Of a stretch of DNA of 22,984 nucleotides, positions 5,715 through 22,984 are shown one piece after another. How positions within the stretch are numbered: position 1 is the stretch's first letter; the number at the start of each line of letters is the position of its first letter. Under the pieces are notes generated by a model. The model made no database searches. It had not been told where the DNA came from and worked only from the letters and a program-made list of their open reading frames with translations. The stretch is from IMG/VR virus record IMGVR_UViG_3300044765_000256, positions 1 through 22,984 of that record; one strand, 5' to 3'. This DNA is from a virus. A program made the position numbers and the translations under genes.

Positions 5715-6002
5715 TTAGCCGGCCGACGCCGGCTCCGTGCGGCTGGCCGCACGCGAGGCGGCCAGCGGAATGCAGATGGCGGGGTTCGGGATGTCGCTGG
5801 GGCACAGCGTGCGGATGGCTTCGAGCCCGGCCACCCAGATGTGCCCGCAGGCATCGTTCTGGCACTCGAAGCGGACCTCGCGGTACGTCGGCGTCAGCAG
5901 GTCGCTGCTGCGCGCGCGGGCGAAGCTCAGGCAATGCGGGCACTTCACCCTGAAGCGGCTCTCGCGCCTTGCGGATTCTGAACGGGGCGGGTGACGGGTC
6001 AT
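5715..6002 (-). CDS. ogr: Ogr/Delta-family zinc-finger late transcription activator
   Basis: This 95-residue protein has the metal-binding pattern of the P2 Ogr and P4 Delta activators: C21-x2-C24, 22 residues, then C47-x4-C52 (KCPHCLSFARARSSD and FECQNDACGHIW). In P2, Ogr contacts RNA polymerase alpha and switches on late structural genes from dyad sites upstream of their promoters. The start is ATG 6002, overlapping the upstream stop (ATGA). The N-terminal extension (about 17 residues, rich in arginine) is longer than in P2 Ogr. Unlike in P2, where ogr follows gene D, it sits here in the early operon. Candidate targets are the dyads at 17092-17111 and 21746-21765. Family assignment is firm; the targets are inferred. 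Confidence 0.82.
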   Translation of the reverse strand: MTRHPPRSESARRESRFRVKCPHCLSFARARSSDLLTPTYREVRFECQNDACGHIWVAGLEAIRTLCPSDIPNPAICIPLAASRAASRTEPASAG

Positions 6003-6748: not shown

Positions 6749-6774
6749 CTCGCTTGCAGCAGGGGTCGGTCTCT

Positions 6775-6794: not shown

Positions 6795-6831
6795 TGATCA
6801 AATGTGTCGCAGTGGATCAGGGAGCGTAACC

Positions 6832-7299: not shown

Positions 7300-7708
7300 G
7301 CTCCCTGCACCTCAGGGAAGCATCCATAAGAGAAATGGTTTGCCAGACGACCTGGTCAGATTTTCGTTTAGGCATTTCCAAGCAAACGGCAAATTTTGTC
7401 TGCCAGATCAATCGCTGTTGCCGCTATACATTCAAACGCTGTTAGATAGATTGCGCAGCGTGTCTGATATGACGATTAGTGAATTCCGAACAAGCGGCAA
7501 CAAATCACTGAGGTCTCATTCGCATGATTGGGCGGAGACTACTGAGCCAAATGGATATGCTCATTTAAGTCAGCAGCTGCAGAGTTGTCAGCCATGGCAA
7601 TTCAGCCTTTCTGCCAACGAACATGGGCGTATTCATGGCATTTTGATCGACAGCGTCTTTTACGTGGTCTGGCTAGATCCTTGCCATGCCCTTTATCCGA
7701 AGAAATAG
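7277..7708 (+). CDS. Putative toxin partner of the Panacea antitoxin
   Basis: This 143-residue protein overlaps the antitoxin gene and is its likely toxin. ATG 7277 is preferred, since AGGAAG lies six bases before it; a TTG at 7259 is also in frame. I do not recognise a named catalytic family. Visible features are a basic N terminus (MRKIKKTELP), a helical middle (LPLYIQTLLDRLRSVSDM), SGNKSLRSHSHDWAETTE with several polar and histidine residues, and a C-terminal strand-turn-strand reading HGRIHGILIDSVFYVVWLD then PCHALYP. The C-terminal pattern is compatible with a small RelE-like or other nuclease fold, but this is only a guess. The 84 bases to the next gene hold no other feature. Confidence 0.65.
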   Translation: MRKIKKTELPAPQGSIHKRNGLPDDLVRFSFRHFQANGKFCLPDQSLLPLYIQTLLDRLRSVSDMTISEFRTSGNKSLRSHSHDWAETTEPNGYAHLSQQLQSCQPWQFSLSANEHGRIHGILIDSVFYVVWLDPCHALYPKK

Positions 7709-7792
7709 CATCGTTTGAGTATAGCTCGCGGACCTATAAAGTTCGCTCAAAAGGCAGTTGTTATGTCCATGTAACTCGTAGGGGGGCGGTGT

Positions 7793-8506
7793 ATGGAATG
7801 GCATGAAGCAATTGCCGAGATAAAGCCTCACATCTTCCACATCTCTACCCCGCAGGGAAGTGGCACCGGCTGGCTCGTATCGCTAAGCAAATCATCTGAT
7901 CTCTGTGCAATCGCAACGGCCGCTCACGTTGTTGACTATGCCCATTTTTGGGAGCTGCCAATCCGTGTTACACACGCTGCCACGGGGAAGTCAGTATTGG
8001 TGCGTGAAGCAGACCGCGCCCTCTTTTTGAATAACGATATCGATTCAGCTGCGCTGGTAATTCACCGTGAAGGCCTTACGGTGCCCGATAGTACAATCGA
8101 TCTGATGTCTGACGGATTCGTCATAAAGCCCGGAGTCGAAGTTGGTTGGATGGGTTATCCGGCCTTCCACCAGACTGAGCCATGCTTTTTTTCGGGACGA
8201 ATTAGTTTGTATGACGAACAGCGCAAGCGCTATCTCGTGGATGGGGTTGCCATCAATGGTGTAAGCGGCGGACCAACATTCCGCATTGGATACAAGAAAG
8301 TCGAGATGATCGGTATCGTCTCGGCATATTGGGCAAACCGATCTACGGGAGAGCTCCTTCCAGGGTTGGCCGTGATTCAAGACGTATCACAGTACTACGA
8401 CGTCACTAGGCGTTTTAAATCAATGGATGAGGTGAAGGCAGTCGAAACGCCGGCTTCCGATACTAAAGAAGCTACCAAGGGCAGTGAGCCGTCGGCTTCA
8501 CCGTGA
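7793..8506 (+). CDS. Trypsin-like serine protease
   Basis: This 237-residue protein has the trypsin/HtrA-type fold. The oxyanion-side segment GSGTGWLVS precedes H45 (ATAAHVVD), an aspartate follows at D84 (or D82) in NNDIDSAALVI, and the nucleophile is S158 in NGVSGGPTF. The catalytic triad is therefore complete. There is no signal peptide, transmembrane segment or PDZ domain, so it should be cytoplasmic. The last 35 residues look disordered (ETPASDTKEATKGSEPSASP). ATG 7793 follows a strong AGGGGGG. Its stop lies 24 bases before the DUF4238 gene, suggesting a two-gene unit. Such cytoplasmic proteases occur in bacterial conflict systems, where they cut effectors or partners; that role here is inferred. 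Confidence 0.82.
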   Translation: MEWHEAIAEIKPHIFHISTPQGSGTGWLVSLSKSSDLCAIATAAHVVDYAHFWELPIRVTHAATGKSVLVREADRALFLNNDIDSAALVIHREGLTVPDSTIDLMSDGFVIKPGVEVGWMGYPAFHQTEPCFFSGRISLYDEQRKRYLVDGVAINGVSGGPTFRIGYKKVEMIGIVSAYWANRSTGELLPGLAVIQDVSQYYDVTRRFKSMDEVKAVETPASDTKEATKGSEPSASP

Positions 8507-8530
8507 CATTGCAGGGCCTTGAAGAGCGCA

Positions 8531-9514
8531 ATGAATAAACCGAGACAAGAAGGCTTGGCCGTCATCCAACACTATGTGCCAAAATTTTTATTGCGCGAAT
8601 TTTCCACTGGCAAAAAAGATCAAATATTTGTTTACGACAAACACACTCAAAAAGAATATCCAACAAACGTAAAAAACATTGCTGCTGAGCGCGACTTCTA
8701 CAACTACGAAGTAGACGGCGTGGAGCATACGTTGGAACCGAAGCTTGCTGCTCTTGAATCAAAGGCGAAGCATGTTATTCAGCAGTTGCTGAGGAGCCAA
8801 AATATAAACGTACTAACACCGCTAGATCGCACAATCTTATCGATGTTCATGGCGGTGCAGTTCATTCGCACGCGGGCCGCAAGGGAATTCATGCGATCGG
8901 CTGTAGACGGTATATATGAGGCGATCAAATCTAAGGGGCGAGGAGATCCTGATTGGTTAAAGGCGGTTGACACATTTGTAGGCGACAATCTCACCGAAGC
9001 AAGAAGACGCCAATTCGAGGTGGAACAGGTTGAATCGGCGCCGCAAAGCTTTGCGCACCACGTTTTAGCGAAGCAATGGCTTCTGTGTAAATCGGATTCG
9101 CGACATGATTTCATCCTCGGGGATCACCCTATAGGGCTCCAAAACACCGAGAGTCATAATCGGCCGGGAAGCCTTGGTTTAGCATCGCAAGGAATTGAAA
9201 TATTTATGCCCTTGTCGCCAAGGTTTTGCTTGATGCTTATCTGCCCCACCGTCATGGCTAGGCTGAAGGTACTATCCGGCAGGGGGAAGGGTGCTCTTTA
9301 TGATGAGCTCAAATTAGCGAGCGATGTTTATAGATGCGCGATTATGGGAGAGACTTTGGATTTCGTTACAGAAAATGTGATCAATGCCAACTCGCTTCAA
9401 ATTATGTTCTCGGAGCGATACGTATTTGCTCGATCTTCTAACTTCGAGCTCGCTCGTGAAATGTTGCGTGATGATCCGGAGTTTCGCAACGGACGGCGCA
9501 TAGCGGTTGAGTAA
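8531..9514 (+). CDS. DUF4238 family protein
   Basis: This 327-residue protein matches the DUF4238 family, named from its opening IQHYVPKFLLREFS and the downstream DRTILSMFMAVQFIRTRAAR, FILGDHPIGLQN and MPLSPRFCLMLICP segments. The family has no proven activity. Conserved His, Arg and Asp positions in these segments suggest an enzyme or nucleic-acid-binding role, but no known catalytic motif can be claimed. ATG 8531 is chosen; a TTG at 8519 is also in frame. The gene is AT-rich compared with the phage structural genes and sits 24 bases after the protease, facing the convergent tail operon. It is probably cargo acquired by the prophage. Confidence 0.75.
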   Translation: MNKPRQEGLAVIQHYVPKFLLREFSTGKKDQIFVYDKHTQKEYPTNVKNIAAERDFYNYEVDGVEHTLEPKLAALESKAKHVIQQLLRSQNINVLTPLDRTILSMFMAVQFIRTRAAREFMRSAVDGIYEAIKSKGRGDPDWLKAVDTFVGDNLTEARRRQFEVEQVESAPQSFAHHVLAKQWLLCKSDSRHDFILGDHPIGLQNTESHNRPGSLGLASQGIEIFMPLSPRFCLMLICPTVMARLKVLSGRGKGALYDELKLASDVYRCAIMGETLDFVTENVINANSLQIMFSERYVFARSSNFELAREMLRDDPEFRNGRRIAVE

Positions 9515-9639: not shown

Positions 9640-10638
9640 CTAGCTAACACGGTGCTCTAGCTCAAGCTGCGTTACTAGTCCATGCTGACTCAGCGAATGC
9701 TCTGCGCGCACGGTGATCCAATCGGTCGCATCGATTCCTGGCTTGAACCCTCGCACCTGCACATGCATTTCGGGATAGAGGTCAGGTCTTCCATGCGCAA
9801 GCATGCACTCGAAGGTCACAATACCGCGAAGCAGTCGATGGTATTCACTACGTGCGGCTCGCAGTGCATTGCTCTTGCTGGCATAGATGGTGCGCAGCGT
9901 TTTTACGTCATTCCCGTCATCGTTGCCTACCAGGACCGCTTCGGTTTTTCCCGTGTGCATATCGTCATACAGCGCACGAATACCCCCATACGCATCACGA
10001 TCCGCCGCGTGGTACCGATGCTGATCCCCGTCCGAACGCACCAACTTCACGCTGGGTAGCGGTTTGCCCGTCGCTGTCGTGCCTTGACCAATGGGGCAAA
10101 AGATCAGCGTTCCCGCCTTGATGGTGGCTACCGCGTCGTAGTGCTTGCCCAGGCGCGTTAGGAAATTGATGTCGCTTTCGTTGGTCTGCTCAACGTGATC
10201 CACCGGTGCATCGGCAAGACTTGCGTGGCAACGCGGCGTGAGCCTGTTGCGTCCTGCCAGCTGATTGATGATGGCACCTACCGTCGTATCGGTATAGCTC
10301 TGCTCTCGCTGCTGCCGAGGATCGCCGCGCAAATGCGCGCTGCGACCGCGAAGGATGAGCTGGTCGGGTGCGCCGACATGCTCCAGCTCATCGATCGCAA
10401 ACGTTCCCATGTCGGTGAGGCCAGCGTCGTCCCAGCCCAGCCATACCTGCAGCGTGGCCGTGCGAGGCGGCAGCGCGAGCTTGCCATCGTGATCGCTCAA
10501 CTCGATATCAAGCTGGTCTGCAGTGTCCTGCCGGCACGCGCTGACTTTGAGTGAGATCAGCCGCGGCGCGATGGCCGAGGTGAGGTCGCGCCCATCGAGC
10601 GTGACCTTCCAACGCGGCTTCGGGTTGCTGCCGCTCAC
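9640..10638 (-). CDS. D: Tail hub protein gpD (phage late control D family)
   Basis: This 332-residue protein is the P2 gpD homologue, a baseplate hub component that joins the tube to the spike. The N terminus (PRWKVTLDGRDLTSAIAPRLISLKV, in two pieces) and the core INQLAGRNRLTPRCHASLADAPVDHVEQTNESDINFLTRLGKHYDA (read as segments) follow the late control D pattern. GTG 10638 overlaps the gpU stop (GTGA). It is the last gene of the leftward tail operon, as in P2. No ogr gene follows it, unlike in P2. Confidence 0.92.
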   Translation of the reverse strand: MSGSNPKPRWKVTLDGRDLTSAIAPRLISLKVSACRQDTADQLDIELSDHDGKLALPPRTATLQVWLGWDDAGLTDMGTFAIDELEHVGAPDQLILRGRSAHLRGDPRQQREQSYTDTTVGAIINQLAGRNRLTPRCHASLADAPVDHVEQTNESDINFLTRLGKHYDAVATIKAGTLIFCPIGQGTTATGKPLPSVKLVRSDGDQHRYHAADRDAYGGIRALYDDMHTGKTEAVLVGNDDGNDVKTLRTIYASKSNALRAARSEYHRLLRGIVTFECMLAHGRPDLYPEMHVQVRGFKPGIDATDWITVRAEHSLSQHGLVTQLELEHRVS

Positions 10639-11093
10639 GCGTAGCCTCGCATGCTGTTGCCGTTGTTCACGGTGCCGGTGAGGTTCTCGTTCCCCGGCGG
10701 TGCGCTCTGCACGCGCCCGTCGTCGGTACGCACCAGCGAGATCGTAAATTCCGTCCGACGCGGAATGCCGTCCTGCGTGAAATGCGTGGCACCTTCCTGC
10801 AAGTGATCGATCACCCAGGCACCCAACACATGGCCCGTGCCATCCACCAGCGCATACGCATCACCGGCATCGGCCATGGTGCGCAGCGTGGACAGGCTCA
10901 CGCGCTTGCCGGCGATCTCCGGCACCAGCACGCCGCTCAACGTGATGGTGTCCTCGCCCGGTCCGATGTATTGCCGTGCTTCGCGCGCGCCGACGCGGCT
11001 GTTGCCCGGATGCCGCCAGGCGGTCGAGCGGCGCAGCTCGTGGTACGCCAGATCCGGCAGTTGAAATACGAATTGTCCCAGTGCCATCAGCAT
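10635..11093 (-). CDS. U: Tail protein gpU
   Basis: This 152-residue protein matches P2 gpU, a tail protein near the tube-hub junction. Family hallmarks are the opening LGQFVFQLPDLAYHELRRST, WRHPGNSRVGAREARQYIGPG and TITLSGVLVPEI, followed by LRTMADAGDAYALVDGTG and a long GAWVIDHLQEG strand region. Three bases separate it from the tape-measure stop, and its own stop overlaps the gpD start. ATG 11093 is the start; a second ATG two codons later is equally possible. Confidence 0.92.
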   Translation of the reverse strand: MLMALGQFVFQLPDLAYHELRRSTAWRHPGNSRVGAREARQYIGPGEDTITLSGVLVPEIAGKRVSLSTLRTMADAGDAYALVDGTGHVLGAWVIDHLQEGATHFTQDGIPRRTEFTISLVRTDDGRVQSAPPGNENLTGTVNNGNSMRGYA

Positions 11094-11096
11094 GCG

Positions 11097-13850
11097 CTAC
11101 TCCGAATCGCTCAATCGCGAACGGGCCGCCGCGGCCTTGGCGCGCTCGCGGCGATCCAGCTCCGCGGACACGGCACGCGCCGTCGCGCGCGCATCGTCGC
11201 CGGGCGCCGCGTGCACGGTCACCGCGTAGGTGTTGGTGATGCTGCTGCCTGCGTTACCGGCCTTGAGCGGCGGACGGCTGTCGAAGGGGAGCGGTGATGG
11301 CGGCATCCGCCCATCGTTCCATTCCCACGTGCGCGGTTCGCGACCTGCCGTGGCGTCACCCTGGCCCAGCGCGGCCTTGAGCGCACGCCATTTGTCGAGC
11401 AACCCGTCAATCTTCTCGCTGATCCAGCGAAACGCCGTGGCGAAGGGTTGCTTGATCACCTCGGTGAGACCGCTCCAGTTCACCGTGATCCACCCGATGC
11501 ACTCGCCGATCTTGGTGCCCAGCCAGATGAAGGCCTGCACCACTGACGTCACCGCAGTGACCACGCCGGCCAACACCGTGCCGAGCACACGGCCGAAGGT
11601 CGCGCCCTGCGTCGCGGCGCTAGTCAATTGCTCCGACGTCGCCTGAAAGGGTTCGAACAAGGCGGTGAGCCAGTGCCACACAACGCCCAGCGCGCCGGCG
11701 ATCGCGTCCCACGCGGGGGCTAGGGGCGCCAGTGCAATGCCGAGCGTGGACAACGCGGGCAGCAACGCATCGCGCAGCCCCTGGCCGACGCCCACGACGA
11801 ACGCCTTGATCGGCTGCCAATACTTCCAGACGACAATGCCTAGCGCGGCCACGGCAGCAACCAAGGCCAGCACTGGCCAGCTCACGCCCGTGATCGCGAG
11901 CATGGCCGCCCGCGCGCCGGTAGCCATCACCGGAAAGACGTTGCGCGCGAGTCCGCCCAGGCGGGTCATCAGGCCCACACCTGCAGCGTCACCGCCAGCG
12001 GCGGCTGCGCCGCGCGCCATCGCACCCATCCGAAGGCGCCCGATGGCAAAGCGCAGCAGCGCGAACTGGCCGATCACACCGCCCAGCACCACCATCAGGC
12101 CGCCAGCGCTGACCATCAGCACGCCCAGGCCACCGGCCACCAGCGCCAGACCCTTGGCCAGGACGGGATGCTGCTGCGCTCCCTCCGTCAGCGTCTTCAA
12201 CACCACGACCAGCTTGCGCAATCCCGCCACATACAGCGGCAGCACCTGGCGGCCAAGCGTGAGGTAGAGGTTGCGCTTCTCCGCTTCGAGATCCGCTTCC
12301 TGTCCGGCCGCGGTCTCCCCGGTCATGCGGTACGTATCATCCAGGCTGGCGAACTTGCCCGCGGCAGCAAGCTGCTTCTGGATGTTCGCGCGCTGCATGA
12401 ACATGCCAGCAAAGAGGTCGCCACCCTTGCGCGCACTGAAGAGCGCATTGAGTTTGCTCACCACCTGGTCATCCGTGAGTTTCCCGGTCGGGTTAATGCG
12501 CGGGATGACCTCCGTCATCATGTAGTCGAAGGGGTTGCTCTCGTACAGCGCCTGGTTCTTGAGTGCGCCCGGCAACATCTTGGTGATGTGTCCGTTCTTG
12601 CCGTATTTCACCGCGTCCTTATTGATCAACCCCAATTGCGCGAGCGCTTCGGCAGTCTGCTGCGTGCTGCGCCCGGCTGCCCAGTTCTGGTAGGCCGACG
12701 CAAAGCCAGTACCGGCGCGCATGCCACCCATTTCCTGGATGGTATGCATGGCGCCGAAGAACAGCGCCTTCTCGTCCATCAGTTTGGCGGCTACGCCGCC
12801 GACCTTCATGGTTTCCAGGTAATCGGACGGTTTGACCAGGCCGCCGGAGCCCACGTACGCGCGACTCATCATGTCCAGCAGGTGCTGGAAGTCTTCGGGC
12901 GTCTTGGTCGCGTTGCGCAGCTCGCCGGTACGGATGGCATCGATCAGTTGGTTGACCGTCTCCTGCCCGTGACCATTGCCCTCGCCGTGCTCGGCCATCA
13001 GTGCGTCGAAGGTGTACTTGGCCTTCAGCAACGCGGGCGCGACCTGCACGGCCTCGTGCATGTCGCGGAAGATGGAGTTCGCATCCTTCACGATTTCCAG
13101 CTTGTCGTTGATGGCGCTGCCGCGGGTGGTGTCGCTGCGCACGAAGCGTTCCGCCTGTGCGATATCGGCCTCGCTCACGCCCTGCGCGCGTAACTGGGCC
13201 AGGTGCGTCTGGTAGACCTTCGCTTCATGCAGCGCGGGTTGGACCTGCGCGATCAGATGTTGGCCCGTTTGCAGCGTGGCGTAGCCGGCGATCGAGAGGT
13301 TCGCACCGGTCGCCTGGCCGCGCGCCAGACGCTCGCGCAGTGCCACCAATTGCTGCGCCTGCACGCCTTGGGCGCGCAGCGCGGCCGTCTGCTGCTCCAT
13401 CGTACGCGTGGCGACGGCCGCTTGGGTGCGCAACCGCGCTTCAGTGGCGCCGAGGTTGCGGGTGTCGACGCCGGCGGCAGCAAGGCCCTCACGCAGTTGC
13501 TGCAGCTTACGGAGCTGCTCGGCCTGCTGCGCCTTGAGATCGCGTGCCTCGGTGGTCAGGCGCTTGAACTGGCGGGACAGCGCCGCGGCAGGCTTGTCGC
13601 TCTCGCGCATCGCGCGCGCCATGGTGTGAATGCGCGCCTGCAGATCCTTCATCCGCGCGGCGGTGTCCCGCGTGCCTTGCTTGAGCGCACGAAACTCGCC
13701 GGCTTGCTTCTGCACGGCATCCAACTGGCGCAATGTATCGCGCGTTTTCTTGAGTTGCTCGGCCGCGGCCTTGCTGGCTTCCTGCACCTTTTTGAGCGGC
13801 CCCGTGGCCTTATCCAGGGTCTGCAGCAGCACCGACAGCTTGAGATCCAC
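11097..13850 (-). CDS. T: Tail tape-measure protein gpT
   Basis: This 917-residue protein sets tail length and is ejected with the DNA. About the first 180 residues are coiled coil, rich in Lys, Gln, Leu and Ala (LKKVQEASKAAAEQLKKTR, DLKAQQAEQLRKLQQLR). A globular middle carries the TP901-like tape-measure region (for example GGVAAKLMDEKALFFGAMHT). The last third has several hydrophobic segments (ALVAGGLGVLMVSAGGLM; WPVLALVAAVAALGIVVWKY; GTVLAGVVTAVTSVVQAF) that may cross the host membrane. The start is GTG 13850, with GGAG six bases before it, four bases beyond the E' stop. The length implies a tail similar to or slightly longer than that of P2, whose gpT is about 815 residues as I recall. 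Confidence 0.93.
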   Translation of the reverse strand: MDLKLSVLLQTLDKATGPLKKVQEASKAAAEQLKKTRDTLRQLDAVQKQAGEFRALKQGTRDTAARMKDLQARIHTMARAMRESDKPAAALSRQFKRLTTEARDLKAQQAEQLRKLQQLREGLAAAGVDTRNLGATEARLRTQAAVATRTMEQQTAALRAQGVQAQQLVALRERLARGQATGANLSIAGYATLQTGQHLIAQVQPALHEAKVYQTHLAQLRAQGVSEADIAQAERFVRSDTTRGSAINDKLEIVKDANSIFRDMHEAVQVAPALLKAKYTFDALMAEHGEGNGHGQETVNQLIDAIRTGELRNATKTPEDFQHLLDMMSRAYVGSGGLVKPSDYLETMKVGGVAAKLMDEKALFFGAMHTIQEMGGMRAGTGFASAYQNWAAGRSTQQTAEALAQLGLINKDAVKYGKNGHITKMLPGALKNQALYESNPFDYMMTEVIPRINPTGKLTDDQVVSKLNALFSARKGGDLFAGMFMQRANIQKQLAAAGKFASLDDTYRMTGETAAGQEADLEAEKRNLYLTLGRQVLPLYVAGLRKLVVVLKTLTEGAQQHPVLAKGLALVAGGLGVLMVSAGGLMVVLGGVIGQFALLRFAIGRLRMGAMARGAAAAGGDAAGVGLMTRLGGLARNVFPVMATGARAAMLAITGVSWPVLALVAAVAALGIVVWKYWQPIKAFVVGVGQGLRDALLPALSTLGIALAPLAPAWDAIAGALGVVWHWLTALFEPFQATSEQLTSAATQGATFGRVLGTVLAGVVTAVTSVVQAFIWLGTKIGECIGWITVNWSGLTEVIKQPFATAFRWISEKIDGLLDKWRALKAALGQGDATAGREPRTWEWNDGRMPPSPLPFDSRPPLKAGNAGSSITNTYAVTVHAAPGDDARATARAVSAELDRRERAKAAAARSRLSDSE

Positions 13851-14370: not shown

Positions 14371-14880
14371 TCAAACGCCGAGCGCGCGGCGCTGCTCGGC
14401 GAGGCGGTCGACACCACCCACGTTGAACACGAAGTTGAGCGGATCGATCTCGATCAACACCTCGCCGTTCACGGCGAGCTTGTAGTAGGCGCAGCTCGTC
14501 GTGAACTTGTGCTGGGTGTTGTCGGCCGGTTTGGCGGTGCCGAAGTCGATTTCCTTGTGACGGCCACGCACCACGACTTCGACCGCATCCGTGGCGCCGG
14601 TGTCGTCACGCTGGTACGCGCCGGCAAAGCGCAGCAGGCAGCCGACGGCGCTGGTCACGCCGAACTGCTTGAGCGCATCCAACAAGAGGCCGCCGGCCGT
14701 CCACTCGAGCGTGATCGGCTCGCCGCCGAGATCGGCCTCGACGCCGGTGTCCATGCCACCACCGCGCCACTCTTCCATCTTGCGGCTGAGTTTGGGCAGC
14801 GTGATCTCGGCGATCTGGCCGAGGTAGTTGTTGCCGGTGTTGAACAGGTTGAAATTCTTGAGCTTGCGCGGCAGGGCCAT
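14371..14880 (-). CDS. FII: Major tail tube protein gpFII
   Basis: This 169-residue protein forms the inner tail tube. Its start MALPRKLKNFNLFNTGNNYLG (read in two pieces) and the segments AEITLPKLSRKMEEWRGGGM, GGEPITLEWTAGG and VVVRGRHKEIDFGTAKPAD are typical of P2 FII homologues. ATG 14880 lies 26 bases after the sheath stop. The stop is 71 bases before the gpE start. It is intact and of normal length. Confidence 0.95.
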   Translation of the reverse strand: MALPRKLKNFNLFNTGNNYLGQIAEITLPKLSRKMEEWRGGGMDTGVEADLGGEPITLEWTAGGLLLDALKQFGVTSAVGCLLRFAGAYQRDDTGATDAVEVVVRGRHKEIDFGTAKPADNTQHKFTTSCAYYKLAVNGEVLIEIDPLNFVFNVGGVDRLAEQRRALGV

Positions 14881-14906: not shown

Positions 14907-16085
14907 TCAGGCGTTGATCGACGCGGCAAAATCGACGAGATAGCGATCGGTGATGCGCTGGCGCAGCTGCAGGTCTTCCAGCGGTGGCACCGGCGTGTAG
15001 TCGTAGTCGATGAAGAGATCGCCCCCGGCGAGCGATGCCACGGCGTTGGCGGACTCGTCGTACCAGGCGCTGGCGCCGATCACGTAGCCGCCGGTCTTCA
15101 TCTGGCGGAATTTCGCGTTGATGCCTTCGAGGATGTCCTTCACCAGGCTCGGGTACATCGACTTGTCGACGGCCCACAGATGGTCATCGGCAATGGTGTC
15201 GGCGAGCACCTGCGCCGTGCGCGTCGCGCTCTCGAACACAAACTTGGGCTCATCCGAACAGGTGCGGTTGCCCCAGAAGCGGAAGCCCTGCGCATTGACC
15301 AGCGTGGTGATGCCGGCTTGATTGAGCAGGCCCGCATCGGTGGCCGGGTCCTGCAGATCCCAGCTCACGTCGATACTGATGCCGGTCACGCCATTCACGG
15401 CCACGTTGGAGAGGGTCTTCTGCCAGCCCTGGCTTTCATCGATGGCGGCGCGCAGGCCCAGCGCATAAGCGGCGGACGGCACCTCGGCCGTGGCGTTGGT
15501 CGTCGTATCCCAGGCCGTGAAGTTCGGCCAGACCAGCATCACTTCGCGCTGGCTGAAGTTCGCGCGGTAGGCGATGACCTCTTCCACCTTCTTGGCATCC
15601 GGCACGTTGAGGTAGGCCATGCCGCGCAGCTTCTTGGCAATCGTCGCGAGCGCCAGGCCGACCGGCTGCGAGTCGAGGCCCGGCGCACCGAGGATGCGCG
15701 GTTTCACACCCAGGCGTGCTTGCGCGGCCAGTAACGCCTGCGCGCCGGTGAGCCGACCGTTGGCGTCCGTGGTGCCGATCACATTGCTGGTGGTCTCGGC
15801 CGCATCCTTGCCCTGCGCCACGCGCACGACCACCAGCACGGGCTTGGTTTGCGCGTCGATGGCGTTGAGCGCGGCCACCAGGGTGCCCTTGCCAGGACTA
15901 CCGGCCTTGCCGATGGCCGCCTTGAGGTCGGTGATCAGCGTCGGCGTATCGAGCGGAAACGTGGTCGGATCGGCGTCGTCGCTGATCGCCACCAGGCCGA
16001 TGACGGCGGTGGACACTGTGGTGAGGGTACGTGCGCCATCGGTGACTTCGATAACGCGGACGCCGTGGTGATAAGCCTGGGCCAT
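14907..16085 (-). CDS. FI: Contractile tail sheath protein gpFI
   Basis: This 392-residue protein is the contractile sheath. The opening MAQAYHHGVRVIEVTDGART and IGLVAISDDADPTTFPLDTP, the middle GAPGLDSQPVGLALATIAKK and ISIDVSWDLQDPATDAGLLN, and the conserved C terminus GGDLFIDYDYTPVPPLEDLQ with TDRYLVDFAASINA are sheath hallmarks. The start is ATG 16085, 24 bases after the gpW stop. The protein is complete, so the tail is of the contractile type. FI and FII are the fifth and sixth genes counted from the J promoter, skipping the cargo gene. Confidence 0.96.
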   Translation of the reverse strand: MAQAYHHGVRVIEVTDGARTLTTVSTAVIGLVAISDDADPTTFPLDTPTLITDLKAAIGKAGSPGKGTLVAALNAIDAQTKPVLVVVRVAQGKDAAETTSNVIGTTDANGRLTGAQALLAAQARLGVKPRILGAPGLDSQPVGLALATIAKKLRGMAYLNVPDAKKVEEVIAYRANFSQREVMLVWPNFTAWDTTTNATAEVPSAAYALGLRAAIDESQGWQKTLSNVAVNGVTGISIDVSWDLQDPATDAGLLNQAGITTLVNAQGFRFWGNRTCSDEPKFVFESATRTAQVLADTIADDHLWAVDKSMYPSLVKDILEGINAKFRQMKTGGYVIGASAWYDESANAVASLAGGDLFIDYDYTPVPPLEDLQLRQRITDRYLVDFAASINA

Positions 16086-16109: not shown

Positions 16110-16469
16110 TCAGGACGCAGCGCTGAGTTGCAGGGGGACGGTGAGGGAAACAGGAGTGGTAACCGGCGTGTCGGTGCGCGTGCCTTCCAGGGTCAGCACG
16201 ACCTGGCCGGGTGCGTCGCCGAGCGCCATCGCCACGCGCGACAGCTGCACGCGCGGTTCCCAGCGCATCAACGCCGTGGCTGTAGCGGCGTAGAGGCGTA
16301 AGCGCGTGGCGGCGTGGAAGGGTTGATCGATCAGGTACGGCAGCAGCGAGCCGTAGTCACGCCGCATCAGCCGCGTGCCGTATGGCGTTTCGAGGATGTC
16401 ACTGATGGACTGCTGCAGGTGAGCCAGCCCGTCGAGGGCTTTGCCGGTGGTGGCGTCGAGTCCACGCAT
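16110..16469 (-). CDS. W: Baseplate wedge protein gpW (gp25-like)
   Basis: This 119-residue protein belongs to the GPW/gp25 family, a wedge component of contractile baseplates. The signature is LAHLQQSISDILETPYGTRLM followed by RRDYGSLLPYLIDQP, which matches the family's I-x-IL-T-x-G-R---YGS-L pattern; the rest is beta-rich. ATG 16469 is three bases from the gpV stop. It is intact. Confidence 0.94.
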   Translation of the reverse strand: MRGLDATTGKALDGLAHLQQSISDILETPYGTRLMRRDYGSLLPYLIDQPFHAATRLRLYAATATALMRWEPRVQLSRVAMALGDAPGQVVLTLEGTRTDTPVTTPVSLTVPLQLSAAS

Positions 16470-16471
16470 GG

Positions 16472-17044
16472 TTACGTCGGCTCGCCGGAAAGGTACGCAC
16501 CCGGTTGCACACCTTGCGTCAGATGATGCTGCAAGCTGATCGTGCCGGCGACCACGTCTTCCGCGGCCGTAATGCCGGCATCGACGGAGACATTGTCGGT
16601 GACGTGCAAGGCGCCGGTGATGCGTGTGTCACCTGTGATCTCCACGCCAGCCGGCGCGACTAGGACGATCTTGCCGCCGGGCGGCAGCGCGACATGGAAT
16701 TCGTGCTTCGCGGGTGCGTAGCTGATCAGCGCGCCGTCGGGGTATTGCGTGATGTGCGTGGCATCGCCATCGACGGGCGCTAGCGCGTCATCACCGTACA
16801 AAGCTGGAAGCACGGTGCCGCGTGCGGTATCGCCGCCGGGGCTTAGCAGAATGACCTGTTCTCCGATGCTGGGTGCCCACCAGGTGCGTGCATCACCCGC
16901 GCGGTAGGTCAGCCAGCGCAGCGGCTTGGTGACGAGCTCGCCGCTACGCACCGTGCAGCGACGTGCGGCGTGATCGACGGAAGCGACCACGCCGTAGCGC
17001 AGGAGATTTTGCAGTAGGCGGGAGAGTTCGACGCGCGGGTCCAT
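16472..17044 (-). CDS. V: Baseplate spike protein gpV
   Basis: This 190-residue protein is the membrane-piercing spike. The N-terminal OB-like part (RYGVVASVDHAARRCTVRSG, WWAPSIGEQVILLSPGGD, GTVLPALYGDDALAP) and the beta-helix C terminus (VEITGDTRITGALHVTDNV, then DVVAGTISLQHHLTQGVQPG) are typical. The tip normally carries HxH with a bound iron (HVHGGV-like); here it reads HHLTQGV, so one His is replaced. ATG 17044 is chosen; a GTG at 17074 extends the frame by ten residues. A dyad lies 48-67 bases upstream. It heads the V-W-FI-FII-E-T-U-D unit. Confidence 0.93.
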   Translation of the reverse strand: MDPRVELSRLLQNLLRYGVVASVDHAARRCTVRSGELVTKPLRWLTYRAGDARTWWAPSIGEQVILLSPGGDTARGTVLPALYGDDALAPVDGDATHITQYPDGALISYAPAKHEFHVALPPGGKIVLVAPAGVEITGDTRITGALHVTDNVSVDAGITAAEDVVAGTISLQHHLTQGVQPGAYLSGEPT

Positions 17045-17091
17045 GCCGGCATGCTGCAGGCGACGCCGATACACTAGCGAGCAGGTGGCAA

Positions 17092-17111
17092 TGTACGGTA
17101 GTGCTGGTACA
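17092..17111. promoter_or_regulatory. Dyad TGTAC-N10-GTACA upstream of gpV
   Basis: TGTACGGTAGTGCTGGTACA has five-base inverted arms. It shares both arms plus CTGGTACA with the dyad upstream of gpJ, at identical spacing. It lies in the divergent gap between gpV and the DUF5677 gene. It resembles the P2 Ogr site, which I recall as TGT-N12-ACA near -55, but with 14 bases between. It is probably the activator site for the V-to-D unit. Confidence 0.6.
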
Positions 17112-17142
17112 GCCGTTGAACTACGAATCCTGGAAATCGGTC

Positions 17143-17865
17143 ATGGCGGACATCAAGGCAATGCTAGGCACTGCAAACGAAATCAAATTTTCATTTGATC
17201 AGGTGCTTTTGCGAGCAAACGTCCGGGATAGCGGTGAGGCCAGAGTCGCTGCATCTTTCTGCCTTACCATCTGCGAACAATTTGCTGCGGTCCTGTGCTT
17301 AGTTGAAGGAGAGCTGTCGACGCACGCGCCTGTCATGATTCGAGTCATGTTAGAAGGGCTGGCCGATCTGATTAATCTAACGAATGAACCGGGTTACCTA
17401 GATCAAATACGGTTTGAGAACGCCCGTAGCGATGTGGTGCTGTTCGAGCAATACGCATCTGATCCAGATATGCAAGACGACAAAGAGGCGCTAGAAACAT
17501 TGGCGAAATGGCGCTCTATTGCGATTCCCATTCGTGACGAGTTGAAAGCCAAGGGTCTTCAAAGGCGAGACATCAAGTGGAAGTTCGACAAAGCTGGGAT
17601 ATCACAGGACTACGTGGCGTACAGGGTATTTTGCTCCTACTCGCACAATCAGCTAACCACGCTTCTCTCGCGTCATCGTGGTAAATACGAACTTCGCTAT
17701 CATCACGAGCCGCCTCTTGAAATGACTGCTCGCACGTTATCAATAGCTGCCAGCATCCTATGCCGGACCATCAATGAACTCCCCAAGTTCACAGATATTT
17801 CGAAAGAAGAAGCAGTGCAGGTCACGAACGAAGCAGATAAAAAATGGGCTCGCTACTTGAGTTGA
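17143..17865 (+). CDS. DUF5677-like protein (cargo inside the tail module)
   Basis: This 240-residue protein resembles the DUF5677 family, which I recall as helical and HEPN-like. Features are a predicted all-helical fold, ICEQFAAVLCLVEGELST, the conserved-looking RVMLEGLADLINLTNEPGY (R-x-x-x-E-x-x-x-D), and YRVFCSYSHNQLTTLLSRH, where SxxxH recurs in the family. ATG 17143 is chosen with a weak GGAAA; an upstream GTG at 17101 would overlap the dyad. It is AT-richer than its neighbours and on the opposite strand to the tail genes. Function is unknown; a lysogenic-conversion or defence role is an inference from context. The 81 bases to the next gene show no convincing terminator. Confidence 0.65.
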   Translation: MADIKAMLGTANEIKFSFDQVLLRANVRDSGEARVAASFCLTICEQFAAVLCLVEGELSTHAPVMIRVMLEGLADLINLTNEPGYLDQIRFENARSDVVLFEQYASDPDMQDDKEALETLAKWRSIAIPIRDELKAKGLQRRDIKWKFDKAGISQDYVAYRVFCSYSHNQLTTLLSRHRGKYELRYHHEPPLEMTARTLSIAASILCRTINELPKFTDISKEEAVQVTNEADKKWARYLS

Positions 17866-17946
17866 GGGGGCGGCAGGAACAGACGATGTCCATTTCGAAT
17901 TGGCAGCCGCTGAGGTCTAACCATCACCGCCCTCTTGAGCGCCGGA

Positions 17947-18624
17947 CTACAGTGGTATAGCAGTCGCTGGAGGTGAGGCTAAGTAGTTGGCGGGTGGTGT
18001 GATGCCGCGCTCTGTAATTTCATGAATCATGCCGTCCTCGGTCCAGTAACGAAAGCCCCGGTAATCGGGCACGGCATCCCAGGCTTGCGTCCCTTCATTC
18101 CATAGCGCGCATACGTGCTCGCCCATTGGAGGTTGGAGCGTGGTTAAGGTGTCAGGCAACGCCACGCCTGGTTGCAGTGATGCCGCGCGCTGAGCGGTTG
18201 CCTTGATCCATAGCGTGCAGCGGCTGTAGTCCGGCGCCACCGACCACGCTTGCGCCGCATCATCCCATACCGAACATCGGCACTCGTCGAGCGCATACCC
18301 CGGCGGTGCGAGATGCGTGACACTTGTAGAGGGTACTTCTCCGAGAGCAAGCGTGTTCGGCAGCGGCTGTGCTGTCGTCGTGTCCCACAGCATGATGTAG
18401 CGGTAATCATCCACGACATCCCAGCCTGTGCCGTCCTGCACGAGGCGGCGCGTTTTATGTGGTCCTGGATCGGACCCTGGATCGACAAAGGTGGCATTAC
18501 TCGGCAACGGGTAGGTTTCTTCAAGTGGTGACAGGTACGCCTCCAGTTCGCCCAGATATTCGCGCGTGCGGGGGCAGAAAACGAAGGCACGCTTCGTCGG
18601 CGGAAGATTGTTCGTGTCAGTCAT
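17947..18624 (-). CDS. Tail fibre-associated protein with three WxVxxDY repeats
   Basis: This 225-residue protein lies directly after the tail fibre gene, in the position of the P2 fibre assembly gene G. Three internal repeats are visible, each with a tryptophan, a valine or alanine, then DY and a later W: WDVVDDYRYIMLW, WSVAPDYSRCTLW and WDAVPDYRGFRYW, spaced about 57-70 residues. It ends with GITPPANYLASPPATAIPL. The start is ATG 18624, 14 bases from the fibre stop; a TTG at 18648 would overlap it. Likely roles are fibre assembly chaperone or a minor fibre component. The repeats are seen directly; the role comes from position. Confidence 0.7.
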   Translation of the reverse strand: MTDTNNLPPTKRAFVFCPRTREYLGELEAYLSPLEETYPLPSNATFVDPGSDPGPHKTRRLVQDGTGWDVVDDYRYIMLWDTTTAQPLPNTLALGEVPSTSVTHLAPPGYALDECRCSVWDDAAQAWSVAPDYSRCTLWIKATAQRAASLQPGVALPDTLTTLQPPMGEHVCALWNEGTQAWDAVPDYRGFRYWTEDGMIHEITERGITPPANYLASPPATAIPL

Positions 18625-18637
18625 TGAGAAGTGCTCG

Positions 18638-20233
18638 TCAATAAGCAATGCAATGGAGCATGTAGGTACCCGCAGGCAGGTTGTCGGTGCCGCCCGCAGC
18701 CGCCACGGTTAGCGTATGCGTGTGGCCACCCGCGCCGCCGACACTGGCCGTGTGGTTGTGATCGCCGACAGCGGCAACCGAAATCGTGTGCGAGTGGTTA
18801 CCGGAACCGTTCATGCCGATATTGTGGCCGTGGTTGCCCTGCCAGTCGGTGGAGAAGTTATGCGCGTGATTACCGGCATCGTTCGTTTGACGTTGCATGC
18901 TTCGGAACGCCGGGCCACCCCCGCCGACATAGCTGGAACCGGTGCCATCGCCAAATACATTGTTGAGCGTGACGTGGGAGTGCTGGCCCTGTGCGTCAGT
19001 AGAACCGCTGTGCGCGTGATTGCCTTGCCCATCCGTCCATGCCGAGTGCACGTGATCGCCGCGGGCATCGGAACTGGCTGCGTGCGTATGCGAGCCGGCG
19101 TTAGTCAGCGTGACGCTGTGCGCGTGATCGCCCACGGCCGTCGCGCTCGCCGTATGCGTATGCGAAAGGATGGCGCCGGCATCGTAGGTGCCGACCTTGG
19201 CGGCCTTGACCGTGACGCGAATGGCCGTGCCTTCTCGCAGATTCGGGACGTTGAAGGTATTGGTGCCATCGCCCGCACCGTAGGTCGTACCAATGGCGGC
19301 GAACAGCGCCGCGTACTGCGTGCGGGAAATCGCCGCGCCGTCGCACAGCAGCGTGTAGGGCGGCGGCGTGGTGGCCGCGGTGACGATGATCTGGCCGGGG
19401 TAGTACCGCGATGTTCCATCCAGCTTGGTGGCGAGCGCTGCCGCCAGGCCGACGATGTCCGCGATCGCATGCTGGTGCGGCATGGGCGGAAAGGCCGCGG
19501 GCACGCCGGTCAGATTGGCCCACGCCTGATAGAAAGCTCCTTCCTGGCCGTCCAGCAGATCCGCATCCAACCCGTTGTTCGCACCGGTGTCCCTGAGCGC
19601 GGCGCTCTTGAGACCGAGCCCCGCGCGAAACGCGATGGCATCGACTGCCGCTAACAGCGCCTTGGCGAACTTGGTCGGAGCGCTCGTCCCGAGCCGATCG
19701 TCCAGGCCGGCTTTGAACGTCGCCGGCGTCACCGCTAGCGCAGCATCGGCGCCCGCGATGACGTCACTGGCAGCAGCCAGCTGCACCACCCCGGGTATAG
19801 TCGTCGTCGCCTTGTTGAGCTGGAAATTCGTATCCCCGAACACCAGGCTGGCCGCGTTGATGTCGGCGAAGCGCGTGTCGACGGCCAAGAGCAGCGTTGC
19901 CTGCGTCGACTTCTCCGCGAGGACGCCTGCCTGGCCATAGACACCGAACAGCGTGCCGTCCTGCAAATACAGGCCGATGCCGCGAACGGTGTAGGTATCG
20001 GTGCTGGTGTCGCGGATCGTGACGTGCACGGTGTCGGCCGCGGTGGCGCCGCCGCTCAGCGTGGTCAGTCGCTTGGCTTCACCCGGAAGTTTGGTGAGTA
20101 ACGGATCGGGGGTAAAGGTCGCCGCCGTCACGCCCACCGAAGCGACCAGCACCGCGTTGGTGCCGTCGTGCTTGGCATTGACCAGGGCGGCGCGACCGGC
20201 CGTCGTGACGGTCAGGGTCAAGGCTTGGGACAT
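18638..20233 (-). CDS. H: Tail fibre protein gpH with collar domain and HxH repeats
   Basis: This 531-residue fibre protein binds the host surface. The N-terminal third (MSQALTLTVTTAGRAALVNA, VRGIGLYLQDGTLFGVYGQA) fits the P2 fibre attachment domain. A tail collar domain follows (YYPGQIIVTAATTPPPYTLL, ISRTQYAALFAAIGTTYGAG, FNVPNLREG). The C-terminal 150 residues contain ten GxHxH motifs with a 12-residue period, broken by one loop of about 30 residues. In T4 gp37 such HxH sites bind iron along a needle. ATG 20233 is preceded by AGGAACCTTGAG, one base after the gpI stop. The variable host-binding part is probably the loop and tip. Confidence 0.9.
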   Translation of the reverse strand: MSQALTLTVTTAGRAALVNAKHDGTNAVLVASVGVTAATFTPDPLLTKLPGEAKRLTTLSGGATAADTVHVTIRDTSTDTYTVRGIGLYLQDGTLFGVYGQAGVLAEKSTQATLLLAVDTRFADINAASLVFGDTNFQLNKATTTIPGVVQLAAASDVIAGADAALAVTPATFKAGLDDRLGTSAPTKFAKALLAAVDAIAFRAGLGLKSAALRDTGANNGLDADLLDGQEGAFYQAWANLTGVPAAFPPMPHQHAIADIVGLAAALATKLDGTSRYYPGQIIVTAATTPPPYTLLCDGAAISRTQYAALFAAIGTTYGAGDGTNTFNVPNLREGTAIRVTVKAAKVGTYDAGAILSHTHTASATAVGDHAHSVTLTNAGSHTHAASSDARGDHVHSAWTDGQGNHAHSGSTDAQGQHSHVTLNNVFGDGTGSSYVGGGGPAFRSMQRQTNDAGNHAHNFSTDWQGNHGHNIGMNGSGNHSHTISVAAVGDHNHTASVGGAGGHTHTLTVAAAGGTDNLPAGTYMLHCIAY

Positions 20234-20234
20234 C

Positions 20235-20789
20235 TCAAGGTTCCTCAGCAGGCGCCACCAGGTCGAGGCGCGCAAACAGGCAAGGGCGTGCAACCGCGAC
20301 GAGGCCGGTCGCCGCGTAGAGGTTCACGCCTTGCGTAAAGGTGAAATGCGAACGCACGGGCTTCGTGCGGGTGACTTCCGCTATCACGTCGTCGACGTAT
20401 TGCGCGGTGGCTTCGGTGCCATCGGCGCCAGAGAGCGTCATCGACAGCTCGAAAGTGTGTGGCTCGCCTTTCGGTTCCTTCTGCCACCACTCGGTAATTT
20501 CTACGGCGCCGCCGAAGCTCTCGACCACATCGCTGACGCTCTTGGCCGTGCCCTTGTGCTTCTGAATCTCGAAGGCGCTGGCGATGCGGGCGCGTTTGAT
20601 GTGCTCGGGCCAATCGCTGCGCCAGGTATCGAGCGACAGTGCCCACGCTAGCCAGGGAAGCAACTCCAGCGGGCAGTTCTTGGGGTTCCACAGATCACGG
20701 ATGGGGACGGGAACCTCCCCGATACGGGCCATCGCCGCTTCCAGTGCACGCTCGGCTGATTTGGCGTTCGGTGGCAGGAGGCTATTCAT
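20235..20789 (-). CDS. I: Baseplate protein gpI
   Basis: This 184-residue protein belongs to the P2 gpI family and completes the wedge that holds the tail fibres. The opening LLPPNAKSAERALEAAMARI, then VPIRDLWNPKNCPLELLPWL, LAWALSLDTWRSDWPE and HKGTAKSVSDVVESFGGAVE match the family closely. The ATG at 20789 lies inside the end of gpJ (8 bases of overlap), and the fibre gene starts one base after its stop, so the three are translated together. It is intact. Confidence 0.94.
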   Translation of the reverse strand: MNSLLPPNAKSAERALEAAMARIGEVPVPIRDLWNPKNCPLELLPWLAWALSLDTWRSDWPEHIKRARIASAFEIQKHKGTAKSVSDVVESFGGAVEITEWWQKEPKGEPHTFELSMTLSGADGTEATAQYVDDVIAEVTRTKPVRSHFTFTQGVNLYAATGLVAVARPCLFARLDLVAPAEEP

Positions 20790-21681
20790 CGGTCCCGCCG
20801 TAGCGCAGGTCGATCGCGGTGCAATACGCCGCCTGCGTGCGGTTGATCACCAGGCGATCGGTGGGTGTATCGAGATCGACCCGCTGCATGCCCGGCACGT
20901 GGATGGCGGCATCCAGCCCGCTGCGCGTAATGTCGCGCCCGAGCTTGTGGGTGTCGACGACGAATTTGGCGAGATTCCGGTCCGAGTTCTCCAACACGAC
21001 CGCGCTGTCGGGCCCGGCGAGCGTGTAGCGCGTGCCCGCGATGCGGTAGGGGATGATCTCGGCGCTTTGCACGACGACTTCATCCGTCAGGGGACGCACC
21101 TTGATGGACGACAGCGCGGCTGCCACCGCGTCCAACGTTGCCTGCGGCGCCGTGCCATCGCCCGTACGCGAGAGCACCGTGACGAGGACCCGGCCGGGCG
21201 AGGGACTGGTTGCGCTGGCGTCGAGCACATCCGGACTCGCGCTGAGCGCGTGGAAGATGTACGCGCCTTCCGGCCCGGCCACGGAGAACCCTTCGGGCGA
21301 AAGGCGGATGCGACGCAGATAGTCTTCGTCGCCTTCCATGATTTTTGGAATGCTGCGCGACGGATCGCCTGGGTCCAAGGTCAGGCGTTCGACGTTGTAG
21401 AACGCGCCGAGATTGTCGAGGTCCGCGCCGCGGGCGTACGGCAGCATGACCGCCTTGGCGCCATCGTTGATGCGCTGGCGTAAGAGCATTTCGCGGTAGG
21501 CGGCGATCTGCAGCACCTTGTACGACGGGTCGGATTCGGTGAGCGCAGTGAATGTGCCATCACGCGTGCGCAGATCCGCGAGCATCTCCGCGAAAATCTG
21601 CTCGAACGAAATCGCCTCCACCACGGCGGGCGCTGGGAGCTGCGACAGATCGACGGCAGTCAGTCCGGTCATGGTCAACAT
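20782..21681 (-). CDS. J: Baseplate protein gpJ
   Basis: This 299-residue protein is the P2 gpJ-type baseplate wedge component. Segments AISFEQIFAEMLADLRTRDG, ESDPSYKVLQIAAYREMLLR, MLPYARGADLDNLGAFYNVE and SPEGFSVAGPEGAYIFHALS are diagnostic. ATG 21681 is used, with a second ATG three codons on; neither has a clear Shine-Dalgarno site. It heads the J-I-H unit, and a strong dyad lies about 65-85 bases upstream. Confidence 0.94.
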   Translation of the reverse strand: MLTMTGLTAVDLSQLPAPAVVEAISFEQIFAEMLADLRTRDGTFTALTESDPSYKVLQIAAYREMLLRQRINDGAKAVMLPYARGADLDNLGAFYNVERLTLDPGDPSRSIPKIMEGDEDYLRRIRLSPEGFSVAGPEGAYIFHALSASPDVLDASATSPSPGRVLVTVLSRTGDGTAPQATLDAVAAALSSIKVRPLTDEVVVQSAEIIPYRIAGTRYTLAGPDSAVVLENSDRNLAKFVVDTHKLGRDITRSGLDAAIHVPGMQRVDLDTPTDRLVINRTQAAYCTAIDLRYGGTDE

Positions 21682-21740
21682 AAGGTGCGGCGATACACCG
21701 TCTCATGCTGCCCATGGCAAACCTTCCAGGGCGAGTTTTA

Positions 21741-21770
21741 TCAGGTGTACCGATAACCTGGTACACCTGA
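21741..21770. promoter_or_regulatory. Dyad upstream of gpJ (11-bp arms, contains TGTAC-N10-GTACA)
   Basis: TCAGGTGTACC (21741-21751) and GGTACACCTGA (21760-21770) are perfect inverted arms around GATAACCT. The core TGTACC...GGTACA (21746-21765) matches the gpV site. There is no T tract on either side, so it is unlikely to be a terminator. It lies in the 116-base gap between the MBL stop and the gpJ start and is probably an activator site for the J unit. Confidence 0.65.
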
Positions 21771-21797
21771 ACCATAAACTCCGTAGATCATTCAAGG

Positions 21798-22766
21798 TTA
21801 GCGGCGAATGCCCTTGAAGCCGGGGTGATAGAGATTGCGAATCGTGTCTGCGTTGGAAGACAGAAGGCGAGCTTTCTTGGCCTCGAACGTGCGCCTGGAA
21901 GATATCTCTGTCGAGTTTGCTTTGTAATTTATAACTTCGTATTGACGGGCATGAGGATGCGCTGATTGGATAACCACATCACCCGTCTTGGTCGTGTAAA
22001 GGCAGATCCCCTTTTCGTATAAACGTTGCCTCACTGCATCCGACGGGTGATCGTACTGGTTGTCATAGTTGCTATTGCAAACGCAAACCGACGGATCGAT
22101 GTGGCTGAGGAATTTTTTTGTTGTGACGTCGTTATCAGCACCATGATGGGCCAAAATCATCACGTCAGTTTCGTTACAAAGAATTTTGGATGCGCGCAGC
22201 ATTGATCCTATGTTCGCATTTTCCACGTCACCTAGACTAAGAACATTAAACGATCCTGCGCGGAAAAATTTAACAGTAGAATTGTCATTGGATCCTTCGA
22301 CCAATTTCTTAGGATGATAAAATATATTGTTGTACCCAAGACCTTCGGCCGGATCTAAGCTAAGCACATATGTCGGGTTAACCCTCTGAAGCTTGACAGG
22401 CTTTGCTGTTCCTGATCGTCCAGACTCGTATTTTTGGATCATCTTCAGACATTCAATCGCACGATCACAATGTGGTTCATAGCCCGGAAACTCTATTTTT
22501 TCTGGTTGCAAATTTTGAAGAATCCAATCCAGGCCCGGTGGTGAGCAGTGGTCTGAATCCCAACTTGTAATATGTAAATCATCAATCGTGGTGCGCTGTT
22601 GAAGGTCGAGCTCATGCTTGATGGATTCTTTGCTGATATCTGTAGCAACCGCTTCTATCAAAGTGAAGTGATTGCCAGCCATGTAGGAAAAGGAAGCTCC
22701 CGCTTGGCCGAGTTGGTAAGCACGAAATCGAGTATTTATTGCTTTAAGGTGCCCAGGCATATTCAT
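21798..22766 (-). CDS. ComEC/Rec2-like metallo-beta-lactamase-fold protein
   Basis: This 322-residue protein has an MBL fold of the ComEC type. It opens with YQLGQAGASFSY, and the metal motif reads TSWDSDH (67-73) where SHxDxDH is usual, so the first His is Ser while D70, D72 and H73 remain. Later motifs are LGD (178-180), HHG (207-209) and DHP (239-241). Such proteins are phosphodiesterase- or nuclease-like; stand-alone forms occur in conflict systems. The start is ATG 22766: GGAG precedes it and it overlaps the upstream stop as TAATG. An ATG at 22808 is also in frame but lacks a Shine-Dalgarno site. The gene is AT-rich and probably cargo. The C-terminal 60 residues are basic and look helical. 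Confidence 0.78.
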   Translation of the reverse strand: MNMPGHLKAINTRFRAYQLGQAGASFSYMAGNHFTLIEAVATDISKESIKHELDLQQRTTIDDLHITSWDSDHCSPPGLDWILQNLQPEKIEFPGYEPHCDRAIECLKMIQKYESGRSGTAKPVKLQRVNPTYVLSLDPAEGLGYNNIFYHPKKLVEGSNDNSTVKFFRAGSFNVLSLGDVENANIGSMLRASKILCNETDVMILAHHGADNDVTTKKFLSHIDPSVCVCNSNYDNQYDHPSDAVRQRLYEKGICLYTTKTGDVVIQSAHPHARQYEVINYKANSTEISSRRTFEAKKARLLSSNADTIRNLYHPGFKGIRR

Positions 22767-22984
22767 TATGCTCCATTGGTAATAATTGAAGTTCGACTTG
22801 CTTGACATGACTGCCAATGAGAAGATGAAATGTCAGCTTGACGGGACTCTGCAATGTGATGCCCATGTCCCGAAATATTGTCGAAGTCGCAGTAATTCAG
22901 TTTCCGCAGCGTGGTAGGAAACTGGCACACCCAGTCTCGCCTTTTTTTGTCCTCCTCTTTCAGAGCGGCTTCCGCAATATTGAT
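22766..22984 (-). CDS. C-terminal end of an unidentified gene coupled to the MBL gene (partial)
   Basis: An open frame enters from the right edge and continues for 72 codons to a TAA at 22768-22766, which shares its last base with the MBL ATG. The visible end reads INIAEAALKEEDKKRRDWVC, then TTLRKLNYCDFDNISG and a Ser/His-rich tail ending SIITNGA. The first part is charged and helical. An open frame of this length could arise by chance, but the TAATG junction and the Shine-Dalgarno site inside its last codons support a real upstream partner. Nothing in it identifies a family; most of the gene lies outside the window. Confidence 0.55.
   Translation of the reverse strand: MNIAEAALKEEDKKRRDWVCQFPTTLRKLNYCDFDNISGHGHHIAESRQADISSSHWQSCQASRTSIITNGA

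Follow-up and report, generated by a model that had tools for sequence, protein, structure and literature searches.

A layout of four late promoters serving JIHG and VW-FI tail operons has already been predicted for the Stenotrophomonas phage Smp131 and for xanthomonad prophages, with the promoters designated PP', PO', PJ' and PV' (PMC3931495). In the Ralstonia phages phiRSY1 and phiRSA1 the motif TGTTGT-N13-ACAACA stands before four late operons, at -50 to -90 from the start codon, and a sigma-70-type promoter sequence was not reported (PMC5694545). Here we analyse the viral record IMGVR_UViG_3300044765_000256, which is an entire IMG/VR contig, classed as linear and 22,984 bases long (hereafter the window), and carries two matching dyads 5' of the tail genes gpV and gpJ. 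Very probably, a P2-type late promoter stands at each, PJ (gpJ-I-H-G) and PV (gpV-W-FI-FII-E-T-U-D), with the dyad as its activator site and the phage's Ogr protein in control.

The two 20-mers, TGTACGGTAGTGCTGGTACA at 17092-17111 and TGTACCGATAACCTGGTACA at 21746-21765, match as the initial annotation had described them, and lie on the minus strand 5' of gpV and gpJ, respectively. Scanning both strands for exact matches to TGTAC-N10-GTACA recovered these two copies and no third, in agreement with the earlier claim, where 0.01 are expected; none of 100 shuffles contained two matches. When up to two mismatches are allowed the window holds 9 matches against 4.1 expected, and therefore only the exact pair stands out. 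The abundance of such loose matches would favour a chance likeness between two short palindromes. We nevertheless regard this explanation as practically dismissed: the exact pair is hardly expected at all, and chance is already refuted by the comparative data presented below, that is, by the conservation of position in all close relatives and the placement of 30 of 39 database stretches before gpJ or gpV. The annotation had also taken gpV and gpJ as the first genes on each side of a cargo gene. The dyads do precede gpV and gpJ, but the genes that flank the cargo gene are gpG and gpV, gpJ being the head of the upstream JIHG unit.

Alignment of the J and V promoters shows that each dyad heads a composite structure, in which it is followed by 10 nucleotides (nt), CTCGC, 20 nt and CAGCAT, with identical spacing at both; GCAGCATG lies 19 nt beyond CTCGC after both dyads, at equal distance. 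CTCGC and GCAGCATG had not been picked up in the initial annotation. It had recorded GTGTATCG after both dyads as perhaps fortuitous; this element is not conserved in relatives, and is hence attributed to chance and rejected as a promoter element. The proposed -10 hexamer, CAGCAT, is of the weak NANNNT type and sits at a fixed distance from the dyad, as in P2-type late promoters. The gpJ transcript is predicted to start near 21698, with a 26-nt leader. For gpV, counting from CAGCAT puts +1 at the first base of the start codon (A, 17044), so that a leaderless message is predicted. On these predicted starts the two-fold symmetric dyad is centred at -57 for both J and V, and at about -56 for the O/P site described below, close to the -55 or so of P2-type activator sites.

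Searches with gpJ retrieved close relatives, including a prophage of Dyella acidisoli (NZ_BSOB01000018, gpJ 92%) and IMG/VR contigs, as well as many Xanthomonas prophages (gpJ ~58%). Within the close group (gpJ 88-93%), the window and 6 relatives keep the centre of the J dyad 82.5-83.5 nt ahead of the gpJ ATG (7 loci), and all 5 V loci compared place the centre of the V dyad 57.5 nt ahead of the gpV start codon. The bases of the 8-nt spacer diverge in relatives while the dyad arms and their positions stay. The D. acidisoli region is a P2-like prophage that includes genes for integrase, the capsid (N), the scaffold (O) and terminase (P), assigned from homology and the gene order of P2. A third site, GGTACC-N8-GGTACC, lies in the divergent O/P (scaffold/terminase) interval and is kept in 4 relatives; in a more distant one (L163) the O/P site reads TGTACC-N8-GGTACA. 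Sites stand before late operons at J and V in the window and, shared by the divergent O and P, in five relatives. The O and P promoters carry hexamers of the GACGAT or GAGGAT type at +34. Since the O/P copies read GGTACC-N8-GGTACC, TGT-N14-ACA was rejected as an invariant core and the best-conserved core is GTACC-N8-GGTAC, from which V-type sites depart by single substitutions. The key prediction of the initial annotation, that more copies would precede capsid, terminase and lysis genes, is borne out in relatives by the O/P site; before the lysis genes there is no separate copy, nor is one expected, since in P2 those genes form part of the O operon.

In the window, the J dyad extends (21740-21771) into a perfect inverted repeat with 11-base-pair (bp) arms (TCAGGTGTACC/GGTACACCTGA), an extension missing in the relatives, and lies downstream of a metallo-beta-lactamase-like gene. 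Such a structure could suggest that the dyads are RNA hairpins, that is, attenuators or terminators closing the upstream unit, and not protein-binding DNA sites. We find this very improbable, as no U-run follows the J dyad and relatives retain 6-bp arms only, with a freely varying 8-nt spacer. Moreover, the V dyad is flanked by divergent genes, and the O/P dyad, set between divergent operons, can terminate neither.

A total of 2.9 million viral contigs of IMG/VR were scanned with a pattern made of the dyad and CTCGC only, the -10 hexamer not being included. The scan yielded 39 stretches, of which 30 (31 sites) had the pattern directly 5' of gpJ or gpV in P2-like tails (gpJ ~60-93%). A NANNNT hexamer (CACCAT, CAGCAT or CAACAT) was present at +34/+35 in 31 of these 31 sites, against 0 of 8 testable sites elsewhere, a count for the Dyella clade made without any filter that selects for the hexamer; the 31 sites collapse to 13 at 85% identity, and independent lineages are hence fewer than loci. 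In the other 9 stretches (L142, L144, L150, L151, L155, L165, L166, L171 and L177) the match lies away from tail genes, and a single unrelated phage sequence, repeated, accounts for 7 of them. The D. acidisoli genome (5.3 megabases) holds two matches to dyad plus CTCGC, the gpJ and gpV prophage promoters, which agrees with the initial expectation of few copies elsewhere, and none was found in 232 other genomes of its family. The core GTACC-N8-GGTAC has two non-prophage matches in D. acidisoli, one at C20:47705 and the other apparently inside a coding gene, the latter taken as chance.

These distributions bear on whether the dyads could be operators through which another regulator (the CI-like repressor encoded at 6350-6748, the AlpA-like protein or a host factor) silences the tail genes in the lysogen. 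Both a CI-type repressor and an AlpA-like protein are indeed encoded in the window, and repressors too use palindromic sites upstream of genes. We hold this to be improbable, because no dyad copy lies near the repressor or early genes of the window, and dyad plus CTCGC is confined to the gpJ and gpV promoters in D. acidisoli. Furthermore, the sites occur at late operons only, at -56/-57 as predicted from the conserved -10. Sites at such positions typically serve activation, and the Ogr and B sites of P2 and 186 lie nearby.

A candidate activator is encoded in the window. PF04606 (Ogr/Delta) matches the minus strand at 5808-5945. The frame of 95 amino acids from the ATG at 6002 scores an E-value of 1.5e-11 and 44.4 bits (cut-off 26.3), and its CX2CX22CX4C finger is exact, as in members of this family. 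A search of five relatives recovered Ogr homologues with this finger in four, besides the one in the window. Six phages of the clade have the same finger core, which parallels the conservation of the operators. Among named phages, the closest fingers are those of the Burkholderia phages FLC5, FLC10, KS14 and KL3 (47-54% identity). Searching with tblastn also revealed unannotated Ogr-like zinc fingers in the KS14 (L181, 3590-3778, minus strand) and FLC10 (L183, 26187-26375, plus strand) records, where each appears to be a missed gene. The O/P copies, the Ogr-family gene and the specificity of the sites support the late regulon put forward in the initial annotation, with GTACC-N8-GGTAC in place of TGT-N14-ACA as its core.

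The most likely course during lytic growth is that the Ogr-family protein (5715-6002, minus strand) occupies the TGTACC/GGTACA half-sites, whose centre lies ~57 bp before the predicted start. Bound Ogr would recruit RNA polymerase to a core promoter formed by CTCGC near -35 and the weak -10 CAGCAT, so that gpV would be transcribed from its own ATG and gpJ with its short leader. In relatives, the third site, common to the divergent O and P promoters, would drive the head and terminase genes. Some observations weigh against this scheme. The Ogr homologue resembles P2 Ogr and 186 B in the finger region only, and the O/P region of the window lies beyond the contig end, its own third site being out of view. 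The count of dyads in Xanthomonas prophages, made with one mismatch allowed and within a set distance range, is less certain than the -10 peak described below. Finally, a second role is possible for the J dyad of the window, because its 11-bp-arm inverted repeat has no counterpart in relatives.

The P2-type tail of the window lies on the minus strand, with gpJ, I, H and a G-like gene separated by a plus-strand DUF5677 gene from gpV, W, FI, FII, T, U and D (Table 1).

Table 1. Positions of the proposed late-promoter elements, the tail genes, the DUF5677 gene and the Ogr-family gene in the window.
Feature	Position	Strand	Basis
Putative activator-site dyad, gpJ (JIHG) late promoter, TGTACC-N8-GGTACA	21746..21765	-	Exact match and relatives
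CTCGC element (-35 region), gpJ promoter, 10 nt past dyad	21731..21735	-	Promoter alignment
CAGCAT, proposed -10 hexamer, gpJ promoter, 35 nt past dyad	21705..21710	-	Geometry as in P2/186
gpJ baseplate protein, first gene of JIHG unit	20782..21672	-	Pfam Baseplate_J, PHROG 4226
gpI	20235..20789	-	PHROG 48
gpH tail fibre	18638..20233	-	Collar domain, PHROGs
gpG-like tail fibre assembly, last of JIHG unit	17947..18648	-	PHROG 105
DUF5677 cargo gene, antisense to tail genes	17143-17865	+	
Putative activator-site dyad, gpV (VW-FI-FII-E-T-U-D) late promoter, TGTACC-N8-CGTACA	17092..17111	-	Exact match and relatives
CTCGC element (-35 region), gpV promoter	17077..17081	-	Promoter alignment
CAGCAT, proposed -10 hexamer, gpV promoter	17051..17056	-	Promoter alignment
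gpV baseplate spike, first gene of second tail unit	16472..17044	-	Phage_base_V
gpW baseplate wedge	16110..16469	-	GPW_gp25
gpFI sheath	14907..16085	-	Pfam/PHROG-type matches
gpFII tube	14371..14880	-	Pfam/PHROG-type matches
gpT tape measure	11097..13850	-	PHROG 28
gpU	10635..11093	-	PF06995
gpD, last gene of second tail unit	9640..10638	-	PF05954
Ogr/Delta/B-family zinc-finger putative late activator, 95 amino acids from ATG 6002	5715..6002	-	PF04606, CX2CX22CX4C

The slot of the DUF5677 gene, with the fibre assembly gene on one side and the next late promoter on the other, is equivalent to that of P2 fun(Z), and three close relatives (L004, L005 and L083) have other sequence there. A role for the V site as a bidirectional promoter also serving this gene was dropped, because the plus strand has no NANNNT hexamer at the right distance. 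A further cargo gene (21798-22808, minus strand), between the head/lysis side and gpJ, occupies the equivalent of the P2 orf30 slot (between S and V). It is metallo-beta-lactamase-like by eye and has no Pfam match; a defence role is possible, given its weak PADLOC matches to LmuA and PDC-M48B. A second cargo block (6676-9514, plus strand), between the repressor and gpD, comprises a SocA/Panacea-type gene, a small open reading frame, a trypsin-like gene (weak RT-Protease/LmuA in PADLOC) and a DUF4238 gene (DUF4238-Pers). In the Dyella prophage its place is taken, by reading, by an AAA/SMC-like ATPase and a Dam-like methylase.

Like the window clade, Smp131 has its operons split into JIHG and VW-FI..D, a shared O/P dyad, sites before J and V, and an Ogr homologue with CX2CX22CX4C. 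It differs in that its sites are similar to TGT-N12-ACA and span 18-19 bp, against the 20 bp of TGTACC-N8-GGTACA, and neither CTCGC nor the -10 core figures in its late-promoter description (PMC3931495). The window site had been described as two bases wider than that of P2. This holds against the consensus TGT-N12-ACA published in the same source, and the width varies among P2-like clades. As the annotated sites of P2 itself give no exact match to TGT-N12-ACA (the window having TGT-N14-ACA), this consensus does not define membership.

P2 and 186 were compared through their annotated activator sites, with offsets counted by hand for P2. At 32-35 nt past the activator site, just upstream of the annotated starts, P2 promoters read CAATCT, GAAAAT, GAAACT and TAGCCT, and those of 186 read GAAACT, GACAAT and TAGCCT. 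P2 (PP, PO, PV, PF) shares with the window clade an activator site at about -55, a shared O/P site and a NANNNT -10, and the annotated start of its V transcript lies on the V ATG, as predicted for the window. On the other hand, its half-sites are imperfect and GTTGT...CCA-like, and V and W open the JIHG operon, whereas in the window they open the FI operon. Phage 186 (p12/pV, pJ) likewise has 20-bp annotated B sites, GAAACT/GACAAT at +34 and a p12/pV site shared by divergent operons; it differs in half-site sequence and in lacking an annotated separate promoter at its P2-V homologue. The third O/P site of the relatives corresponds in position to the pO/pP site shared in P2 and to the pV/p12 B site shared in 186.

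The Burkholderia phages FLC5, FLC10, KS14 and KL3 have the left half-site TGTACC of the window; in KL3, N10-CTCGC and, at the V start, GCAACATG occur as well. Unlike the window, they have a 19-bp dyad (TGT-N13-ACA), a right half-site AACA/GACA and the gene order VWJIHG. The V promoters of FLC5, KS14 and FLC10 (L180, L181 and L183) also contain a conserved perfect inverted repeat, ACACGCT-N9-AGCGTGT, overlapping the interval that separates the Ogr-type site from the V start. phiRSY1 and phiRSA1 share an Ogr homologue with the window and differ in their motif (PMC5694545). The exact window dyad is absent from the Xanthomonas relatives, where a 19-bp dyad, TGTAR-N9-YTACR, stands in its place. After dereplication, NANNNT falls at exactly +34 in every V and P promoter of these relatives and in 81% of the 37 J promoters, where the average across all offsets is 7%. 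Their sequence 60-160 nt upstream of gpJ is hypervariable (L009, L011, L084 and others), yet the 19-bp dyad and NANNNT are kept 34 nt apart.

Tentatively, and with more doubt than confidence, we suggest that P2-like clades hold mutually insulated late regulons, in which Ogr and operator changed together (half-site TGTACC, TGTAR, GTTGT or TGTTGT, spacing 18-20+ bp) without any shift in the -10 or in its distance; in the clade of the window, gpV and possibly gpP would have leaderless messages. Sibling phages and satellites would therefore not cross-activate, and the Dyella-type TGTACC-N8-GGTACA would be one private code among several clades. Pairing operator families with Ogr sequences could reveal the DNA-reading residues of Ogr, for which we found no answer in the literature searched, and could yield compact, orthogonal activator-promoter pairs. 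Neither the TGTACC-N8-GGTACA operator, nor a CTCGC/-10 core common to J and V, nor a comparison that sets diverging operators against a constant -10 distance was found in that literature, which largely excluded subscription journals. The analysis provides a precise late-promoter model (operator, -35 region, -10 and predicted starts) for a P2-like clade in Dyella and environmental contigs, in which the activator DNA code differs from that of sibling phage groups and core promoter geometry is constant. Since the four-promoter JIHG/VW-FI layout had already been predicted for Smp131, this is a known system with a new operator variant: the P2 scheme with a different activator-site sequence, conserved across the clade.

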